DNA of 64,000 nucleotides from Catenuloplanes atrovinosus (GTDB lineage Bacteria > Actinomycetota > Actinomycetes > Mycobacteriales > Micromonosporaceae). The translations under genes and the position numbers were made by a program. Positions 10,201 to 46,867 of the stretch are shown piece after piece (within the stretch, counting starts at the first letter, position 1; each line of letters opens with the position of its first letter). Where the stretch lies: contig NZ_JAVDYB010000001.1 in the NCBI RefSeq assembly GCF_031458235.1, forward strand, positions 2,191,001-2,255,000, in the 5' to 3' direction. The notes under the pieces were generated by a model. The model searched no databases. It was not told the origin of the DNA and saw only the letters and a list, made by a program, of their open reading frames with translations.

Positions 10201-10464
10201 CACCGCGGCGCCGAGCGCGGACGCCCTGATCGACGGCATCGGGTCGTGCGCCGCGGCCGCGATCCCGTCGCGGTCCCGGGCCACCAGCGCGGCGTGCAGC
10301 GCGAGCCGCCGCTCGTACGGGCCCTGCTCCCGCAGGTCGGCGCAGACGTCGGCGCGGTCCGGCGCGGTGCGCGCCCACCGGGCGAGCGTCCTCATCCGCT
10401 CCCGGTACGGCAGCGGTTCCAGCGACGTGAGCAGGTTGCGGGTGGCGGTGAGCACGCCGATCAT
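7204..10464 (-). CDS. Very large HEAT/armadillo-like repeat protein, function unknown
   Basis: The product is 1086 residues from ATG 10464. No enzyme motif, signal peptide or membrane segment is visible. From end to end it consists of 30-45-residue alpha-helical pairs with repeated patterns such as DPMPSIRASALGAAVRAG, DDPEVAIAEAALGALAG, SRKEAVRLLARFG and HPDPDVREAAYGID. The recurring 'D-P-x-V-R-x-A-A-x-x-A-L' is the HEAT-repeat signature. Such solenoids are scaffolds that bind other proteins or nucleic acid. It lies 36 bp after the NarL-type regulator and 21 bp before the flavoprotein gene, all leftward, so it may be controlled by the two-component system. Arg and Ala content is very high. 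I cannot assign a partner or process. Confidence 0.8.
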   Translation of the reverse strand: MIGVLTATRNLLTSLEPLPYRERMRTLARWARTAPDRADVCADLREQGPYERRLALHAALVARDRDGIAAAAHDPMPSIRASALGAAVRAGVAAGEHADRPQADRRRIHRALRRHPRPETADALIAEIRARFGDHEAAALLPACGPDTVRALLPELEHAIRPVRLVRRHPGPLLDRVRERLGAATAEERVTIWADAAPAVLRCDPADALDLLERYPPGEALPGPLTAYGVLAAHAPDRVAALLTAPARAGWLHRTTLPPGLLRRLAPLPTDVLAAIGARIRDNAIALAALLDAVPPRRRGPLYDRIMADVDTATAVPAPAVMEVLPEPVRVREATRVLTLPRIREQEQLADTWSAYLAWPDARAALDVTLRSGDADERARGYALLVTAARRSRDPRAVADVLARLGRLRNEQDPVRASALAALRAMAPLLTAGTADALTRLTTDAAEARDASAATTTALSGLAADVLRHHVDEPSLREWALFTIDLMSGSATVPVLRRFDSVLRRGQEAMVFARLRGWVENGVARARYGPLFALTHALGRRARHVPELQELLGRATGPDTLPSVARTAISLWLDDPRTRAARVAAVLDADGSAVTLHEVWSTICVSRTDLLDRVLHAPIAGRFVERGTRWVPRWAVRPERWLPRQQARFVELSALVAADAGQGVQARAAAVRAAAAIPGAGRDLVLRYVDDPEVAIAEAALGALAGTDRPDEALPVLLRYAGGDRARVALYAAGRAARYVPPPVLADVLGPVLAGPAKVTSRKEAVRLLARFGPPDAMATLLDLYTRPDQHRDVRAAIVSAARQGLGSEASWTILRAAVGGSREERRAVLGAYPYAIAERHRARYGAFLLDAARADDAEVRRAAFARLATWSPWLTGAADLIVDRLTDTGESLTHLEAAGLLRAGGDAVLGTALERLIARDAADDRPGDPLEDRPARRRVQVLAAGASARSRTLPPDADRSALTGAARWLAARAGFTGTGVVLLVDLGRLDNLDEVAGLCAGRPVLAAHIADQVGRRMRGLRDWSDPEAVARLARRGDVTGGLFAVRLVQHGAGFGWTGTWRTLLLELRAHPDPDVREAAYGIDMS

Positions 10465-10500
10465 TGTGCCCGCGCGCGTCTCGCGACGACGCGAATAATG

Positions 10501-11163
10501 TCAGCGTCCGCGCGGCGCCACCAGCCCGCTCTCGTACGCGACCACCACCGCCTGGGCGCGGCTGGCCAGGCCGAGCTTGCCCATCAGGCGCTTGACGTGC
10601 GTCTTCACCGTGGCCTCGCTGAGCACCAGGCGCTCGGCGATCTGCAGGTTGGACAGGCCGTTCGCGACCAGGCGCAACACCTCGGTCTCGCGCGCGGTCA
10701 GGCCGTCCAGCGCGGGCGCGGTGGCGGCGGGGGAGCGGTGCCGGTCCGCGTACGCCTCGATCAGCCGCTGCGTGATGCGCGGCGCCATCAGCAGGTCGCC
10801 GGAGACGATGGTGTGCACGGCCGCGATGATCCGCTCGGGCGGCGTGTCCTTCAGCAGGAACCCGGACGCGCCGGCGCTGAGCGCGGCGTAGACGTACTCG
10901 TCCAGGTCGAACGTGGTCAGCGCGACCACGTGCGGGCGGGGCTCGGCGGCCAGGATCGCGCGGGTGGCCGCGATGCCGTCCATGTGCGGCATGCGGATGT
11001 CCATCATCACCACGTCCGGTCGCGTCTGGGCGGCCATCGCGATCGCCTGGGCGCCGTCCGCCGCCTCGCCGACCACCTCGATCCCGGGCGCGGCCGTGAA
11101 CAGCGCGATCAGACCGGCGCGGATCAGCGCCTGATCATCGACGACCAGCAGCCGGACGGTCAT
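10501..11163 (-). CDS. NarL/LuxR-family response regulator
   Basis: The product is 220 residues. The receiver domain (about 1-120) has the acidic pair in VVDDQ (8-12), the phospho-acceptor Asp in VVMMDIRMPHMDG (about 54) and the Lys in LLKDTPPE (about 105). The C-terminal LuxR helix-turn-helix reads LTAREVLRLVANGLSNLQIAERLVL... in the usual order and then VKTHVKRLMGKLGLASR (about 155-210). Its start overlaps the kinase stop by 4 bp (ATGA), so the two are translationally coupled. It is the cognate regulator of the kinase at 11160-12266. Likely targets include its own operon, with the TACCCC palindrome at 12327 as a candidate site. Regulon and signal are unknown. Confidence 0.95.
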   Translation of the reverse strand: MTVRLLVVDDQALIRAGLIALFTAAPGIEVVGEAADGAQAIAMAAQTRPDVVMMDIRMPHMDGIAATRAILAAEPRPHVVALTTFDLDEYVYAALSAGASGFLLKDTPPERIIAAVHTIVSGDLLMAPRITQRLIEAYADRHRSPAATAPALDGLTARETEVLRLVANGLSNLQIAERLVLSEATVKTHVKRLMGKLGLASRAQAVVVAYESGLVAPRGR

Positions 11164-38795: not shown

Positions 38796-39437
38796 TCAGA
38801 CGACCAGCCGCCGCTGCCAGGCCCAGATCGCGATCTCGGTACGGTTCCGCGCGGCCAGCTTCTCCTGCACGCTCGCCAGGTGCGACTTCACGGTCGACAG
38901 CGAGATGCGCAGGTCGGCGGCGATCTCCGCGTTGGTGCTGCCGCGGGCCACCGCGAGCACCACGTCCAGCTCGCGGCCGGTCAGCGGCAGGTCGGCGCGC
39001 TCCGCGGCGCGCTCGGTGATGTGCCGCAGCAGCCGTACGGTCACCGACGGCGAGACCAGCGCCTCGCCCTTGGCCGCGGCGCGCACCGCCTCGGCCAGCC
39101 ACCCGGGCCCCACGTCCTTGAGCAGGAAGCCGCAGGCCCCGGCTTGCAGCGCGGCGTAGATGCTTTCGTCGACGTCGTAGGTGGTCACCACCACCACCTT
39201 GAGCGGGTCGGTCACCCCCGGGCCGGCCAGGAGCTCGGTGGCGCGCACGCCGTCCAGCTTGGGCATGCGCAGGTCCATCAGCGTCACGTCCGGGCGCAGC
39301 GCGCGGGCCAGCCGCACCGCGGCCTCCCCGTCGGCGGCCTCGCTGATCACCTCGATGTCCGGCTCGGCGTCGAGGATGAGCCGGAACGCGGCGCGGATCA
39401 GGCTCTGATCGTCGGCCACCAGGACCCGAATCGGCAT
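38796..39437 (-). CDS. NarL/LuxR-family response regulator (orphan)
   Basis: The product is 213 residues from ATG 39437. The receiver (about 1-120) has the acid pair LVADDQ, the phospho-acceptor Asp in VTLMDLRMPKLDG (about 54) and the Lys in LLKDVGPGW (about 108). The LuxR helix-turn-helix (about 150-205) reads LTGRELDVVLAVARGSTNAE then IAADLRISLSTVKSHLASVQ. No histidine kinase gene is adjacent. Upstream is instead the duplicated peptidase segment, whose left breakpoint lies about 20 bp from this start, so a kinase gene could have been lost there. The GH43 gene lies 42 bp downstream and may be co-transcribed. Confidence 0.92.
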   Translation of the reverse strand: MPIRVLVADDQSLIRAAFRLILDAEPDIEVISEAADGEAAVRLARALRPDVTLMDLRMPKLDGVRATELLAGPGVTDPLKVVVVTTYDVDESIYAALQAGACGFLLKDVGPGWLAEAVRAAAKGEALVSPSVTVRLLRHITERAAERADLPLTGRELDVVLAVARGSTNAEIAADLRISLSTVKSHLASVQEKLAARNRTEIAIWAWQRRLVV

Positions 39438-39498
39438 CGGTCTCCCCTCGTCGGTGCCGCGGCCCGCCTCGACCCACCGGTTGCCTGCGGTTCCTCGT

Positions 39499-39518
39499 CC
39501 GAAAGTACTACCTTTCGG
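39499..39518. promoter_or_regulatory. Inverted repeat upstream of peptidase A
   Basis: CCGAAAG (39499-39505), 6-bp spacer TACTAC, CTTTCGG (39512-39518). It lies 74 bp before the peptidase A start. The same site before peptidase B is broken (see 41750-41769), so the two copies may be regulated differently. Confidence 0.55.
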
Positions 39519-39592
39519 CAATCCGCCGTGACGCGGAGGCGCTCGCGATGGTGATATCGATGCCACCAGATCCCTGCCACGAAAGGACTACC

Positions 39593-41323
39593 GTGCGTAG
39601 ATCCACCGCGGGCGCCGCGATCATGCTCACCACGGCGCTGGTGATCACCGGGAGCGGTGTTCCGGCCAGCGCCGCGGTCGACCCGTTCGCCGCGTTCGCC
39701 GACCAGGAGGTGACCTGGGGGCCGTGCGCGTTCACCCCGGAGCCGGATGCGCGGCCCGCCGAGTGCGCGGTCATCACGGTGGCCCGCGACTGGGCCACGC
39801 CCGGCAACGGGCGCACCATCCAGGTCTCCATCAGCCGGGTCGCCGCGAGCGGTGAGAAGCTCGGCTCCCTGCTCATCAACCCGGGCGGCCCGGGTGGTCA
39901 GGGCACGTCGCTGCCCGGCGCGCTGGCCGCCGTCCAGCCCGGACTGCACGAGCGCTACGCGCTGATCGGGATGGACCCGCGCGGCACCGGGCAGGAGGGC
40001 GGCACCACGCCCGAGTTCGAGACCTGCGAGGTGCCGCTCGACCGGATCTCCCAGCGCACCGACCTGGACGCCCGGGACCGGTCGGCGGAGAGCATCGCCG
40101 AGCACCAGAAACTGCCGCGCGCGATGGCGGAGGCCTGCCAGAGCGAGGCGCTCGCGCCGTTCATCACCACCTGGCAGACCGCGCACGACATGGAGCTGAT
40201 CCGGATCCTGCTCGGCGAGCCGCGGCTGGACTACCTCGGCTACTCGTACGGCACCTGGCTCGGTGCCAAGTACGCGTCGCTGTTCCCGGGCAGCGCCGGC
40301 AAGATGGTGCTGGACTCCAGCATGAACTTCCAGGGCCGCCTGCAGGCCACGTTCGAGGCCTGGCCGCCGATCAACCAGCGGCTCTTCGACGCCCAGTTCC
40401 TGCCGTGGATGACGCGGCAGTTCCCGGACGTGGTCGGCACCACGCCCGAGGAGGCCAAGGCCAACTGGGAGCGGGCCCGGGTCTGGTTCGCGGCCCAGGA
40501 GGTCAGCCCGAACGACTACGACCTCGCGTTCGCCGGCCTCGGCTCGCCGTTCGCCTGGATGCTGGCCGCGCTGGTGTTCACGATCGGCGTGACCGGCGCC
40601 AACGGTGGGGAGCCCACGCTGACCGACTCCCCTCTCGCGCCGATGCTGGACGCGCAGTCCCGGGAGCGGTTCGGCGTGCCGCTGGGCGAGCTGACGCCCG
40701 CGGTGGCCGCCAAGGCGCTCGCGGACGACCCGGAGGACTACGGGCTCGTGCCGACCACCCGGCTCGCGGTGGCCTGCGGTGACCAGCCGACCCGATCGGC
40801 CGCCTGGTACAAGCGGCTCAGCGACGAGCAGGGCCCGCGCTACCCGCTGCTGGGCTGGGAGTACGGCATCTACACCGAGCCGTGCGCGTTCTGGTCGGAC
40901 GCGCCGCGCCAGCAGCTTCCGCAGCTGCCCGCGGAGGTCACCGGCCGGCTGCTGGTGGTGCAGAGCGAGTTCGACCCGCAGACCGGCTACGAGCAGGCCC
41001 GCGGCGCGGTCCGGGCCGCGCCCGGCGTCAGCATGGTGTCGGTGGACGACAGCCCGTTCCACGGTCAGTACGCGTTCGAGGGAAACCCGTGCGTGGACGG
41101 CATGGTGAACGTGTTCCTGCTGCACAACTCGCGTCCGGCCTCGGGCACCTGCCCGGGCCTGCCGCTGCCGGCCGAGACCGAGGTGTTCCCGGTGGACGGC
41201 CCGGTCCGCACGCCGGCCGCCGCGACGATGTCGGCCTCGTCGGTCGCGCCGCTGCCCGGGCTGCGCGCCGCGGTGCAGGACATGATCAGTGAGGTGAACA
41301 CGCCGCCGGGCGTGGGCCGCTGA
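39593..41323 (+). CDS. Secreted tripeptidyl-aminopeptidase-like S33 alpha/beta hydrolase, copy A
   Basis: The product is 576 residues from GTG 39593 behind GAAAGGA (39581-39587). The signal is [20 protein letters not shown], cleaved near PASAA. The S33 core has [15 protein letters not shown] (oxyanion loop, about 85-100). The nucleophile Ser is in [18 protein letters not shown] (residue 218). [12 protein letters not shown] holds the acidic residue and [16 protein letters not shown] the His, near the C-terminus. Cys residues (TEPCAFW, GNPCVDG) suggest disulfides outside the cell. It resembles the SlpD/tripeptidyl aminopeptidases of streptomycetes that remove tripeptides from proteins. The downstream oligopeptide transporter suggests uptake of its products. 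Confidence 0.9.
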
Positions 41324-41345
41324 CCTGACGCCGATCCGATGACGG

Positions 41346-41375
41346 GGTGCGCGGGCTCCGCGGAGCCCGCGCACC
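41346..41375. terminator. Hairpin after peptidase A
   Basis: A perfect 15-bp inverted repeat, GGTGCGCGGGCTCCG and its complement, with no loop bases spare (the centre pairs CGCGG). It is the shorter sister of the 34-bp one at 43591 and terminates peptidase A, or folds when read either way. Confidence 0.6.
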
Positions 41376-41703
41376 TCACGCGTCCGACGTGGCGGCGTGG
41401 CGGACCCGCTGCGCCCGCGGGTCCGGGACCGGGGCCGCGGCGAGCAGCCGCTGGGCGTACGGGCAGTGACGGCCGCAGCGCCAGCGCCCGCGCGATCACC
41501 ACCCGCTGGCGCTGACCGCCGGACAGCTCGTGCGGGTACCGCTCGGCGAACGACGCGTCCAGCCGTACCGCCTCCAGCAGCTCGGCCACCCGGGTGCGCG
41601 CGCCGGTGCCGCGGGCGTGCAGCTCGACCGGCTCCGCGATGCTGTCGCCGACCGTGCGGCGCGGGTCCAGCGCGGCGGCCGGATCCTGGAAGACCACGCC
41701 GAG
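41376..41703 (-). pseudogene. Truncated ABC ATPase 3' end (duplication remnant)
   Basis: This is a copy of the end of the ATPase gene at 43623-45215. It reads [20 protein letters not shown] and then [20 protein letters not shown], after which the frame is wrong. A 217-bp deletion (equivalent to 43711-43927), not a multiple of three, removes the Walker B and D-loop region. The 5' 1 kb including both Walker A motifs is also absent. It cannot make an active ATPase. It marks the right end of duplication unit 1. Confidence 0.9.
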
Positions 41704-41749
41704 TCCGCGGCGGCCCGCCTCGATGCACCGGCTGCCTACGGTTCCTCCT

Positions 41750-41769
41750 CCGAAAGTACTACCTCTCAT
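41750..41769. promoter_or_regulatory. Degraded inverted repeat upstream of peptidase B
   Basis: The left arm CCGAAAG and the spacer TACTAC are kept but the right arm reads CTCTCAT instead of CTTTCGG, so symmetry is lost. Confidence 0.5.
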
Positions 41770-41843
41770 CAATCCGCCGTGACGCGGAGGCGCTCGCGAT
41801 GGTGATATCGATGCCACCAGATCCCTGCCACGAAAGGACTACC

Positions 41844-43574
41844 GTGCGTAGATCCACCGCGGGCGCCGCGATCATGCTCACCACGGCGCTGGTGATCACC
41901 GGGAGCGGTGTTCCGGCCAGCGCCGCGGTCGACCCGTTCGCCGCGTTCGCCGACCAGGAGGTGACCTGGGGGCCGTGCGCGTTCACCCCGGAGCCGGATG
42001 CGCGGCCCGCCGAGTGCGCGGTCATCACGGTGGCCCGCGACTGGGCCACGCCCGGCAACGGGCGCACCATCCAGGTCTCCATCAGCCGGATCGCCCCGAG
42101 CGGTGAGAAACTCGGCTCCCTACTGATCAATCCGGGCGGCCCCGGCGTCCAGGCGACGTCGATGCCCAGCGCGCTGGCCGCGGCGCAGCCCGGACTGCAC
42201 GAGCGGTACGCGCTGATCGGGATGGACCCGCGCGGCACCGGGCAGCAGGGCGGCAACTCGCCCGAGGCGGAGACCTGCGCGGTACCGCTCGACCGACTCT
42301 CCCAGCGCCTCGACCTCGATGCCCGGGACCGGTCGGCGGAGAGCATCGCCGAGCACCAGAAGGCACCCCGCGCGATCGCGGAGGCCTGCCAGAGCGTGGC
42401 GCTCGCCCCGTTCATCACCACCTGGCAGACCGCGCACGACATGGAGCTGATCCGGATCCTGCTCGGCGAGCCGCGGCTGGACTACCTCGGCTACTCCTAC
42501 GGCACCTGGCTCGGTGCCAAGTACGCGTCGCTGTTCCCGGGCAGCGCTGGCAAGATGGTGCTGGACTCCAACGTGAACTTCCAGGGCCGGTATCAGGCCG
42601 CGTTCGAGTCGTGGCCGCCGATCAACCAGCGGCTCTTGGACGACCAATTCCTGCCGTGGATGGCCCGGCAGTTCCCGGACGTCGTCGGCGCCACGCCGGC
42701 GGAGGCCAAGGCCAGCCGGGAGCGGGGCCGTGCCTGGTTCGCCGCCCAGGGCGAGAGCCCGGACGTCTACGACCGCGTGTTCGTCGGCATGGGCTCGTCG
42801 CAGGCCTGGGTGGTGGCCGCGCTGGTGTTCGTGCTGAGCGTGTCCGGCGCGGACCAGGAGGAGCCCACGCTGGTCGATTCCGCTCTCGCACCGGCGCTGG
42901 ACGCGCGGTCCCGGGAGCGTTTCGGCCTGCCGCTGGCCGAACTGACGCCCGCCGCGGTCGCCGAGGCGCTCGCCGACGACCCCGAGGATTACCTGCACGC
43001 GCCGGTCACCCGTTTCGCGGTGGCCTGCGGTGACCAGCCGACCCGCTCGGCCGCGTGGTACAAGCGGCTCAGCGACGAGCAGGGCCCGCGGTACCCGCTG
43101 TTCGGCTGGCTGTACGGCATCGGCCTCGAGCCGTGCGCGTTCTGGTCGGACGCGCCGCGCCAGGAGCTGCCGCAGCTGCCCGCGGAGGTCACCGGCCGGG
43201 TGCTGATGGTGCAGAGCGAGTTCGACCCGCAGACCGGGTACGAGCAGGCCCGCGCCGCTGCCCAGGCCGCGCCCGGAGTGAGCATGATCTCGGTGGACGA
43301 CAGCCCGTTCCACGGGCAGTACGCCTTCGAGGGCAACCCGTGCGTGGACGGCATGGTGAACGTGTTCCTGCTGCGCAACTCGCGTCCCGGCTCGGCCACC
43401 TGCCCCGGCCTCCCGCTGCCTGAGGAGACCGAGGTGTTCCCGGTGGACGGCCCGGTCCGCACTCGCGCGGCCGCGACGATGTCCGAGTCGTCCGTCGCGC
43501 CGCTGGCCGAGCTGCGCGCCGAGGTGCAGAACATGATCAGTGAGGGCAACACGCCGCTGGGTCTGGCGGACTGA
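41844..43574 (+). CDS. Secreted tripeptidyl-aminopeptidase-like S33 hydrolase, copy B
   Basis: The product is 576 residues from GTG 41844 with the same ribosome site as copy A. The first ~82 codons are identical to copy A. Later segments diverge in many positions (for example residues about 90-190 and 290-370), with the Ser ([11 protein letters not shown], residue 218), [10 protein letters not shown] and [14 protein letters not shown] motifs kept. The catalytic triad therefore appears complete. Differences lie mostly on likely substrate-side and surface segments, so the two may differ in specificity. It is followed by a long terminator and the oligopeptide transporter operon on the other strand. 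Confidence 0.9.
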   Translation: MRRSTAGAAIMLTTALVITGSGVPASAAVDPFAAFADQEVTWGPCAFTPEPDARPAECAVITVARDWATPGNGRTIQVSISRIAPSGEKLGSLLINPGGPGVQATSMPSALAAAQPGLHERYALIGMDPRGTGQQGGNSPEAETCAVPLDRLSQRLDLDARDRSAESIAEHQKAPRAIAEACQSVALAPFITTWQTAHDMELIRILLGEPRLDYLGYSYGTWLGAKYASLFPGSAGKMVLDSNVNFQGRYQAAFESWPPINQRLLDDQFLPWMARQFPDVVGATPAEAKASRERGRAWFAAQGESPDVYDRVFVGMGSSQAWVVAALVFVLSVSGADQEEPTLVDSALAPALDARSRERFGLPLAELTPAAVAEALADDPEDYLHAPVTRFAVACGDQPTRSAAWYKRLSDEQGPRYPLFGWLYGIGLEPCAFWSDAPRQELPQLPAEVTGRVLMVQSEFDPQTGYEQARAAAQAAPGVSMISVDDSPFHGQYAFEGNPCVDGMVNVFLLRNSRPGSATCPGLPLPEETEVFPVDGPVRTRAAATMSESSVAPLAELRAEVQNMISEGNTPLGLAD

Positions 43575-43590
43575 CCTCACCGTCGATGGT

Positions 43591-43624
43591 GAGGTGCGCG
43601 GGCTCCGCGGAGCCCGCGCACCTC
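43591..43624. terminator. Perfect 34-bp inverted repeat between convergent genes
   Basis: Two 17-bp arms, GAGGTGCGCGGGCTCCG and its complement, meet without a spacer. It lies 16 bp past the peptidase B stop and touches the ATPase stop (43623), so it can act for both convergent transcripts. A second small repeat (CCTCACC ... GGTGAGG) overlaps its left side. Confidence 0.8.
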
Positions 43625-45215
43625 ACGCGTCCGACGTGGCGGCGTGCCGGGCGCGCTGCGCCCGCGGGTCCGGCACCGGGGCCGCGGCGAGCAGCCGCCG
43701 CGTGTACGGGTGGGACGGCGCGGTCAGCACCTCGCCGGTCGGGCCCTCCTCCACGATCCGGCCGCGGTGCATCACGGCCACCCGGTGCGCGATCGCGCGG
43801 ACCACGGCCAGGTCGTGGCTGATGAACAGGCAGGCGAAGCCGTACTCCCGCTGCAACTCGGCCAGCAGCGACAGCACCTCGGCCTGGATGGACACGTCCA
43901 GCGCGCTGGTCGGCTCGTCCGCGATCAGCAGCGACGGCCGCAGCGCCAGCGCCCGCGCGATCACGACCCGCTGGCGCTGACCGCCGGACAGCTCGTGCGG
44001 GTACCGCTCGGCGAACGACGCGTCCAGCCGTACCGCCTCCAGCAGCTCGGCCACCCGGGTGCGCGCGTCGGTGCCGCGGGCGTGCAGCTCGACCGGCTCC
44101 GCGATGCTGTCGCCGACCGTGCGGCGCGGGTCCAGCGCGGCGGCCGGGTCCTGGAAGACCACGCCGACCCGGGCCCGCACGGACCGCAGCGCCCCGCGCC
44201 GCGCCGTGCCGATCTCCAGGCCGTCGACCGTGACCGTGCCGGAGGTGATCGGGGCCAGCCCGACCAGCGCGCGGCCGATCGTGGACTTGCCGGAGCCGGA
44301 CTCGCCGACCAGCCCGGTCACGGTGCCGGCCGGGAGGTCCAGGGACACGCCGTCGACCGCGCGCACCCGCCGGTCGTACACCACGGACAGGTCGCGGATG
44401 GACACCGCGGTCCCGGCCGCGTCCGGCGCCGCGGGGAACTCGCCGGTCAGCGACGGGACCGCGGCCAGCAGCGCGCGCGTGTAGTCGTGCGACGGCGCGC
44501 CGAACAGCGACTCGACCGGCGCGGACTCCACCACCGAGCCGGCGCGCATCACCACCACGTCGTCCGCGAGGTCGGCGACCACGCCCATGTCGTGCGTGAT
44601 CAGCAGGATCGCCGTGCCGTGCGTGTCGCGCAGCCGGCGGAGCAGCGCGAGGATGCCGGCCTGCACGGTCACGTCCAGCGCGGTGGTCGGCTCGTCCGCG
44701 ATCAGCACCTCGGGTTCGCAGCTGATCGCCATCGCGATCATCGCGCGCTGGAGCTGGCCGCCGGAGAGCTGGTGCGGGTACGACGCGGCCACCCGCTCCG
44801 GCGCGTCCAGCCCGGCCTCGGCCAGCAGCGACAGCACGCGGTCCCGCAGCGCCGCGCGCCCCGGCCGGCGGTGGACCGACACGGCCTCCGCGATCTGCGC
44901 GCCGATGGTGTGCACCGGGTTCCACGCGCTCATCGGCTCCTGGAAGATCGTGCCGATCCGGGCGCCGCGGACCGCGCGCAGCGCCGCCGGTGACGCGCCG
45001 ACCAGTTCCTCCCCGCCGAGCCGGATGTGCCCGGACACGGCGGCGGACGGCGGCAGCAGGCCGAGCGCGGCCATCGCGGTCACCGACTTGCCCGACCCCG
45101 ACTCGCCGACCAGCGCGAGAATCCGCCCGCGGCGCAACGCGAACGTCACGCCGCGGGCGGCCCGCACCTGGCCGAAGGCGACGGAGACCCCGTCGAACTC
45201 CAGCACGTCGCTCAC
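43623..45215 (-). CDS. Oligopeptide ABC transporter ATPase, two fused nucleotide-binding domains (DppDF-type)
   Basis: The product is 530 residues from GTG 45215. It has two complete ABC domains. Domain 1 (about 1-260): Walker A GESGSGKSVT (near 36), signature QLSGGQLQRAMIAMAI and Walker B VLIADEPTTALD. Domain 2 (about 275-510): [26 protein letters not shown] and [12 protein letters not shown], each followed by the His-switch (ITHDMGVVAD, ISHDLAVVRA) and the DppD/F-type HPYTRRLLAA end. It powers the transporter with the two permeases. It is last in the leftward operon and overlaps the binding-protein stop by 4 bp. Its 3' half was copied in the tandem duplication. Confidence 0.93.
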   Translation of the reverse strand: MSDVLEFDGVSVAFGQVRAARGVTFALRRGRILALVGESGSGKSVTAMAALGLLPPSAAVSGHIRLGGEELVGASPAALRAVRGARIGTIFQEPMSAWNPVHTIGAQIAEAVSVHRRPGRAALRDRVLSLLAEAGLDAPERVAASYPHQLSGGQLQRAMIAMAISCEPEVLIADEPTTALDVTVQAGILALLRRLRDTHGTAILLITHDMGVVADLADDVVVMRAGSVVESAPVESLFGAPSHDYTRALLAAVPSLTGEFPAAPDAAGTAVSIRDLSVVYDRRVRAVDGVSLDLPAGTVTGLVGESGSGKSTIGRALVGLAPITSGTVTVDGLEIGTARRGALRSVRARVGVVFQDPAAALDPRRTVGDSIAEPVELHARGTDARTRVAELLEAVRLDASFAERYPHELSGGQRQRVVIARALALRPSLLIADEPTSALDVSIQAEVLSLLAELQREYGFACLFISHDLAVVRAIAHRVAVMHRGRIVEEGPTGEVLTAPSHPYTRRLLAAAPVPDPRAQRARHAATSDA

Positions 45216-46867
45216 TGCTTCAGCGACGCCTTCAGGTAGTTCGGGTACGCCGGGAACTCGCCGATGTAGAAGTTCTCCACGTTGGACCCGCGCAGGAACG
45301 AGTTCTTCGTGTAGATCAGCGGTACCACCGGCACGTCCTGGAGGATGCGCCGGTCCGCCTGCGCCCACAGCGCCTGCGACTTGGCCGGGTCGACCTCCGC
45401 GGTGGCCTGTGCGATGAGCTGGTCCACCTCGGGCACCGAGTACCGGGAGAGGTTGAACCCGCCGCCACCGATCTCGCTGGAGGCGAACAGCGGCTGGATG
45501 TTGCCGTTCGCGGACGGGAAGTCCGGCTGCCAGGAGGTGAGCGTCAGGTCCCAGTCGTCGCGCTCGCCGCTGGTGACGTGCTCGAACCAGGACTCGTACT
45601 CCTCGGTGCGGATGGTGACCTCGATGCCGGCCCGCGCGAAGCCCTGCTGCAGCGCCTGCGCCTGGCTGCTCCACTGCCCGTCGCTGCGGGCCAGCAGCGT
45701 CAGCTTCGGCGCGGTCTGCCCGGCCTCGGTCAGCAGCGCCTTGGCCTTCTCGACGTCGCCGGACGGGTCCGCCGGGAAGAGGTCGTACTCCACCCGGCCG
45801 GGGATGCCCGGCGTGATCAGCGTGGTGGCCAGCCCGCCGCCGATCTCGCCGCCGGACGCGACCTGGTAGGCGCGCTTGTCCGCGGCGTAGGCGAGCGCCT
45901 GGCGTACCCGCACGTCGGTGATCTTCTTGGTGTTGATCGCCAGGTAGGCGAGCGCGCCCGGCGACGAGGTGACGATCCGGTCCTTGACCGCGGGGTTCGC
46001 CTGCGCCTGCGCGAGCTGGGCCGGCGGCACGAAGTTGGCGCCGAAGGCGAAGCGGTCGTCGCCGGAGTCCGCGACCAGCCGCTGCGCCGCGACCGTGGTG
46101 TCCTGCCCGAGCTGGAAGATGATCTTGTCAGGACCGGCGGTACGCACCGGGTCCGTCTCCTGCTTCCACGCCGGGTTGCGCTCCAGCACCGCCTCGGACC
46201 CGGCCGTGTAGGAGGTGATCTGGTACGGCCCGGACGCGACCGGGCTCCGGCCGTACTCCGCCGGGTTGTCCTTGGCCTGCGGCACCGGCGCGAACGCGGG
46301 CATGGACGCGATCCACGGCCAGTCGCCGTAGGCGTTCTTCAGCGTGAACGTGATCGTCCTGTCGTCCGGCGTGGCGATCGAGTCCAGCGACTGCCCGTCG
46401 TACGGTCCCTCGTAGGTGTCCCCGCCGGCCAGCAACGCCTTGTGGTAACCGAGACCGCCGCCGAGCTCCGGCGCGAACGAGCGCTCCAGGCCGTACTTGA
46501 TGTCCTTCGTGGTGATCGGCGAGCCGTCCGGGTAGGTCAGCCCGTCCTTCAGCGTGAACGTCCAGGTCTTGCCGCCGTCCGTGGTGGTGCCGGTGTCGGT
46601 GGCCAGGTCCGCCACCACCGCGGGCGGCTTGCCCGGCGAGATGTCCCAGGTGGTGAGCCGGCGCAGCACCAGGCCGCCGGAGGTGATCGCCAGCGTCTGG
46701 CTCTTGGCCGGGTCCAGGTTGAACTCCGACGCCGAGGACAGGATGCGCAGCGTGCCACCCTTCTGTGCGGCCGTCGTCGCCTCCGCCGAGGGGGAGGGGT
46801 TGGCGTTGCACGCGGTCAGCCCCAGGATCACTGCGGCGGCCGCGGCAACGGCTAGGCGGGCTCTCAT
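45212..46867 (-). CDS. Oligopeptide ABC transporter substrate-binding lipoprotein (SBP family 5)
   Basis: The product is 551 residues from ATG 46867. The lipobox is LGLTACNANP (Cys near 20). The SBP_bac_5 core includes KGGTLRILSSASEFNLDPAK, GKTWTFTLKDGLTYPDG, DIKYGLERSFAPELGGG, PVASGPYQITSYTAGSEAVL and VRQALAYAADKRAYQVA (the family motif 'R-x-A-x-x-x-A-x-D-R'). It binds peptides or related solutes and delivers them to the permeases. It lies between the permease and ATPase genes, with 11 bp to the permease and a 4-bp overlap with the ATPase. Confidence 0.93.
   Translation of the reverse strand: MRARLAVAAAAAVILGLTACNANPSPSAEATTAAQKGGTLRILSSASEFNLDPAKSQTLAITSGGLVLRRLTTWDISPGKPPAVVADLATDTGTTTDGGKTWTFTLKDGLTYPDGSPITTKDIKYGLERSFAPELGGGLGYHKALLAGGDTYEGPYDGQSLDSIATPDDRTITFTLKNAYGDWPWIASMPAFAPVPQAKDNPAEYGRSPVASGPYQITSYTAGSEAVLERNPAWKQETDPVRTAGPDKIIFQLGQDTTVAAQRLVADSGDDRFAFGANFVPPAQLAQAQANPAVKDRIVTSSPGALAYLAINTKKITDVRVRQALAYAADKRAYQVASGGEIGGGLATTLITPGIPGRVEYDLFPADPSGDVEKAKALLTEAGQTAPKLTLLARSDGQWSSQAQALQQGFARAGIEVTIRTEEYESWFEHVTSGERDDWDLTLTSWQPDFPSANGNIQPLFASSEIGGGGFNLSRYSVPEVDQLIAQATAEVDPAKSQALWAQADRRILQDVPVVPLIYTKNSFLRGSNVENFYIGEFPAYPNYLKASLKQ

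Follow-up and report, generated by a model that had tools for sequence, protein, structure and literature searches.

Organization of the duplicated peptidase locus

The locus described here carries two genes for predicted secreted peptidases in tandem with the dead end of an ABC ATPase gene between them, and it raises the question of how and when this arrangement arose and what has since become of the two copies. Self-comparison of the sequence revealed two head-to-tail homologous units, 39456-41702 and about 41707-44167. The window (the whole stretch of DNA analysed, 64,000 nucleotides) holds three families of direct repeats of at least 100 bases, all of which are part of the peptidase duplication. 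Both observations confirm the tandem duplication proposed in an earlier note on this DNA, with essentially unchanged coordinates. The features are as follows.

38796-39440, minus strand: LuxR/NarL-type response regulator, divergent from peptidase A (Pfam Response_reg 4.6e-23, GerE 4.4e-16)
39456-41702, plus strand: unit 1 of the tandem duplication (sequence comparison)
39593-41323, plus strand: peptidase A (pepA), 576 aa, GTG start, Sec-type signal peptide by eye (Abhydrolase_1 1e-11, TAP-like Abhydrolase_4 7.3e-16)
41346-41702, minus strand: dead ATPase remnant, lacking the 5' part of the gene and about 217 internal bases (sequence comparison)
41703-41711, no strand: duplication junction, exact base not resolved (sequence)
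41707-44167 (start approximate), plus strand: unit 2 of the tandem duplication (sequence comparison)
41844-43574, plus strand: peptidase B (pepB), 576 aa, GTG start at 41844, Sec signal peptide by eye (Abhydrolase_1 and Abhydrolase_4, as in pepA)
43623-45218, minus strand: intact two-domain oligopeptide-type ABC ATPase (PF00005 in two stretches, oligo_HPY)
45212-46861, minus strand: family 5 solute-binding protein of the importer (PF00496 6.6e-67)

Beyond the solute-binding protein gene lie two putative permeases, judged from their reading frames only. Both peptidase copies possess an Abhydrolase_1 core and a TAP-like C-terminal domain above the Pfam cut-offs, as is characteristic of TAP-like/S33 alpha/beta hydrolases, and NCBIfam gave no match for either product. 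Ser218, Asp461 and His490 are invariant in 22 of 22 aligned sequences, both copies included, and are presumed, by analogy with the family, to form the catalytic triad. From their sequences, the products are predicted to be secreted peptidase-like alpha/beta-hydrolases.

As had been proposed, the junction falls within the ABC ATPase gene, leaving a dead ATPase end between the copies and an intact ATPase gene beyond unit 2. The heptamer GGCCCGC was spotted by eye near both parental ends of the junction; the join nevertheless does not match a simple overlap, and clean microhomology was rejected. The constant shift of 2251 bp between the units, as previously described, holds from 39456 to about the stop codon of peptidase A. 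Beyond this point it changes to 2247 over 41337-41463 and to 2465 over 41463-41702, because unit 1 lacks about 217 bases of the ATPase gene (43711-43927 in unit 2). The genome assembly is a single 8.9-Mb contig, and the difference of 12% between the peptidase bodies argues against a duplication introduced by assembly.

Relatives retain a single peptidase gene

The genus sample comprised five genomes, the present one (G000) and four relatives (G001-G004). Each of the four relatives carries one peptidase copy (E 1e-100), no second peptidase match was found in their neighbourhoods, and the response regulator adjoins the peptidase in every one. In G003 and G004, the regulator, peptidase, ATPase, binding protein and the two next genes occur in the inferred ancestral order; these are also the two of the four relatives with an intact ATPase gene adjacent to the peptidase, which the intact ATPase here matches over nearly its full length at 82-84%. 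The ancestral order of regulator, peptidase and ABC ATPase suggested earlier was thus recovered in single-copy form in two close relatives, and the peptidase is single in all four. With head-to-tail homologous units, a novel junction and a single copy in relatives, the locus is a tandem gene duplication, and among the five genus genomes it is specific to this lineage.

The remaining two relatives differ around the peptidase. In G001, the ATPase match lies on a different contig from the peptidase. In G002 (L039, about 10295-11053), the importer operon is cut down to an ATPase end set against a fragment of the second permease-like gene, beside the same peptidase; this reduction is an independent loss.

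Outside the genus, close relatives of the peptidase are patchily distributed. Only one of 32 same-family genomes (G035) was positive at E 1e-150, and its peptidase groups with L029-L036 rather than with the genus in the protein tree. Fifteen named loci with the peptidase come from genera such as Lentzea and Actinophytocola. Horizontal spread of the peptidase family is possible.

Diverged bodies and near-identical ends

Over the body of the peptidases (codons 83-576), A and B differ with a dN of 0.108 and a dS of 0.206 (rounded, 0.21). The corresponding body dS is 0.267 (A) and 0.323 (B) to G003, and 0.295 (A) and 0.344 (B) to G004. For the five genes flanking the unit, dS ranges from 0.223 to 0.316 between G000 and G003 and from 0.182 to 0.330 between G000 and G004; the lowest of these values, from the binding-protein gene in the comparison with G004, is below that of the A-B bodies. 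As the dS between the bodies comes near that of the splits from G003 and G004, the duplication is not recent on the scale of species splits. In terms of dS, its depth is roughly three quarters to four fifths of those splits, and the same proportion may apply to time. The description of the duplication as recent is at odds with the body dS of 0.206 set against 0.267 for A-G003 and 0.18-0.33 for the flanking genes. Dating by synonymous differences, as the earlier note had suggested, gives an old age in the body and near-identical ends that look converted rather than young.

Divergence between the units is distributed as a mosaic. At the outer end, 39456-39522 differs from unit 2 at 9 of 67 sites. 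This is followed by a stretch without any difference (0 in 316 over 39523-39838; 0 in 318 counted from 39521).

39521-39838, plus strand: identical head tract, corresponding to 41772-42089 (0 differences in 318 sites)

To the right of the head tract, 40 of the first 326 sites differ, and 39839-41323 as a whole shows 179 differences in 1485 sites (three rows summed). Within the ATPase remnant, 7 of 117 sites differ over 41346-41462 and 4 of 240 over 41463-41702, where 36 differ from G003. The head tract covers the core promoter region, the ribosome-binding site, the signal peptide and the first 82 codons, and its noncoding and synonymous sites are identical too; across the same 318 sites, A differs from G003 at 67. 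Correspondingly, dS over codons 1-81 is 0.000 for A-B versus 0.398 for A-G003. The longest run of polymorphic sites at which A equals B, located in the head, counts 104 sites, compared to a maximum of 35 in 10,000 permutations. Relative to the body, the deficit of A-B against A-G003 differences is significant for the coding part of the head (Fisher 8e-11) and for 41463-41702 (6e-6).

The head tract thus shows the pattern of interlocus gene conversion: excess identity at synonymous and noncoding sites, with diverged DNA on both sides. A dead gene is expected to drift. The excess identity of the remnant (41463-41702) is significant, but this patch is bounded by the deletion and the junction rather than by diverged homologous DNA. 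The near-identical ends are most simply read as the result of an old duplication whose copies later exchanged short patches, by gene conversion or by unequal exchange, with the caveats that two separate converted patches are needed and that the adjoining part of the remnant (41346-41462) differs at 7 of 117 sites. The ends would look young because the head and most of the remnant were overwritten by this later exchange, as the identity of the tracts suggests. The locus illustrates clearly how dating a tandem duplication by its ends would make it seem younger than it is. With regard to direction, both copies share 23 changes in the head, where 23.6 are expected if it derives from B and 14.3 if it derives from A (p = 0.02 against A as donor, 0.58 for B). 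This weakly indicates copy B rather than A as donor of the head.

Alternative histories of the two copies

Taken as a whole, an old tandem duplication followed by conversion between the copies in short patches is in our view the probable history of the locus. An alternative that we regard as rather unlikely is a recent tandem duplication followed by homologous recombination with an unsampled relative, in which one body, probably that of B, was exchanged for foreign DNA. Low divergence at 41463-41702 (1.7%) and in the head (0%) would fit such a history, as would the lower GC3 of B (0.941, compared to 0.970 in A) and its longer branch (0.109 versus 0.044); that B is also faster at synonymous sites, as imported DNA might be, is a caveat to an old duplication. 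However, 39456-39522 is diverged as well (9/67), so that this history would require two separate imports flanking an untouched piece, and A and B still group in trees. A clear donor did not emerge either: of 20 homologues compared at the 90 A/B differences, 17 are nearer to A, two are tied (L030, L032) and L029 alone favours B, by 27 to 25, with margins of 2-5 for several distant homologues. Import of body B from a sampled lineage was accordingly rejected, L029 being the only one of the 20 homologues nearer to B.

A duplication that predates the genus split and was followed by loss of one copy in every sampled relative appears improbable. The A-B body dS would agree with it, being close to species depth and higher than the value for the binding-protein gene in the G000-G004 comparison (0.182). 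Against it stand the single copy in each of the four relatives at E 1e-100, the lack of a second match in their neighbourhoods, and the trees. A and B group together in 94% of 200 bootstraps for body DNA and with 92% ultrafast support for protein. Eight trees, one of them entered twice and the set not exhaustive, were compared: the AU test rejects each of the four distinct trees in which A and B do not group (p ≤ 0.006), the SH test leaves three such trees unrejected (0.134, 0.12 and 0.05) and the KH test two (0.086 and 0.079). Of the three trees tested that join A and B, one was rejected on other grounds. Finally, the duplication might be recent and have served dosage or specificity, the bodies having diverged solely through accelerated protein evolution. 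The little-diverged ends on both sides would suit such a history, but protein selection cannot account for a dS of 0.000 in the head versus 0.206 in the body, and we consider it very improbable.

Copy B has changed faster than copy A

In the body, 80 sites are unique to B and 34 to A (about 2.4 times as many). Polarised codon changes number 69 in B and 29 in A (487 codons, p = 7e-5), made up of 26 versus 11 synonymous (p = 0.02) and 43 versus 18 nonsynonymous changes. Among residues invariant in the 21 other aligned sequences, B has changed five (G104A, L107M, L250Y, W292R and V455M) and A none. The two copies differ at 42 of 140 residues in the helical lid (residues 243-382) versus 48 of 354 elsewhere. 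In eight of eight pairs compared, lid divergence amounts to 1.2 to 2.5 times core divergence, and it was thus rejected as a mark of the duplication.

The ratio of nonsynonymous to synonymous changes is 35:29 after the duplication versus 35:50 on other branches (p = 0.135), and in the lid 19:7 versus 13:16 (p = 0.055). Neither contrast gives significant support for positive selection after the duplication. Since post-duplication ratios do not differ significantly from those on other branches, the data do not bear out the adaptation in dosage or specificity that had been suspected. Copy B may be under relaxed constraint or may have changed its specificity.

A 13-base motif marks both upstream regions

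A 13-base motif is present before both peptidase copies.

39499-39511, plus strand: 13-base motif upstream of peptidase A, putative control site (genus genome search)
41750-41762, plus strand: second copy of the 13-base motif, upstream of peptidase B (genus genome search)

In each case the motif lies 82-94 bases upstream of the start codon. It occurs once per genome in all four relatives and twice here, always upstream of the peptidase; a reversed control is absent from all five genus genomes. Within the window, two exact and two two-mismatch matches were found, compared to 0.10 expected at two mismatches or fewer. Across 249 genomes of the order, the motif appeared in four (this one, G001, G095 and G210), of which G095 and G210 have one match each and no peptidase at E 1e-200. 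The three non-genus genomes with the peptidase at E 1e-200 among the 249 lack the exact motif. The reversed control was more frequent among the 249 than the motif, turning up in 16, so that a single match per genome is unremarkable; it is the constant position that stands out.

Among the 15 named loci from other genera, searched over the upstream 220 bases on one strand, seven have the motif with 0-1 mismatches and eight with 3-6. Random windows of these loci matched with two mismatches or fewer in 15 of 2000 cases, which may include true sites. The motif follows one part of the peptidase tree. Of the literature matches listed for the motif, none dealt with a bacterial operator, judging by title. 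In the five genus genomes, the motif is confined to this peptidase, so that a possible regulon with a single target can be tested directly.

Regulator, kinase and importer as partners of the peptidase

The response regulator is found near the peptidase in eight of the 15 named loci, always next to a sensor kinase match (e.g. L022:4206-5408); in L025, the regulator match reaches 57% and the kinase match, which is partial, 43%. No sensor kinase match occurs beside the regulator in the window searched here or elsewhere in the genus, and the kinase matches listed for the five genus genomes do not exceed 42% identity. The response regulator looks orphaned in the genus. Motif and regulator coincide in three named loci (L022, L023 and L025), the motif occurs without the regulator in four (L024, L026, L027 and L028), the regulator without the motif in five (L029-L032 and L034), and three have neither. 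This co-occurrence (both in three, one alone in nine, neither in three) does not support the response regulator as binder of the motif.

The ATPase of this locus was found near the peptidase in none of the 15 named loci (flanks of about 6 kb); L031 has an ATPase match at 34%. Beyond the genus, about half of the peptidase loci come with the motif and about half with the two-component pair; no locus comes with the importer. The pairing of peptidase and oligopeptide importer put forward earlier does not amount to a general partnership, with the ATPase adjoining in two of four genus relatives and in no locus elsewhere.

Discussion

We propose that an ancestral block consisted of the regulator, a divergent gene for a secreted alpha/beta-hydrolase peptidase and a convergent ABC ATPase gene. 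One tandem duplication in the lineage of this species, joined inside the ATPase gene, produced a second peptidase gene with its own copy of the upstream control region and a dead ATPase end, as the sequence and the relatives show. Later exchange between the copies, most simply gene conversion, would then have overwritten the 318-base head and most of the ATPase remnant. Copy A stayed nearer to the ancestral protein, and copy B changed faster, most densely in the helical lid. Both copies are probably under the same regulator via the same 13-base site, and the exported enzymes may differ in substrate range.

A and B may even be a selected pair: conversion would keep promoter, export signal and N-terminus common to both, next to a control site with a single target, and in B the lid and the surroundings of the active site could diverge freely. 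We consider this reading unlikely. If true, one signal would release two enzymes of different specificity.

The literature searched yielded no paper on front-end conversion and, among the matches listed, none on this locus. The best sequence and fold matches to the peptidases are the secreted alpha/beta hydrolases Hip1/CaeA (Rv2224c) and TnmK1/TnmK2, but the proteins described here are only 22-24% identical to these solved structures, in a fold search with a structure model of middling confidence (pLDDT 67, pTM 0.71).

Tandem duplications that leave a truncated neighbour gene are an ordinary type of event in bacteria. Head-to-tail copies, a junction inside a gene and a remnant pseudogene are common to such events and this locus; unlike in these, a rare upstream motif was here duplicated together with the gene. 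Overall, the event is instructive but of a known kind.

Prokaryotic paralogues are known to evolve in concert (PMC6053082), and for bacteria the kinetics of gene conversion have been described (PMC5485169). As in the cases covered there, the paralogues of this locus are partly closer to each other than to their orthologues, synonymous sites included. Unlike in those cases, only short patches are affected here, and the bodies of the two peptidases have escaped and diverged.
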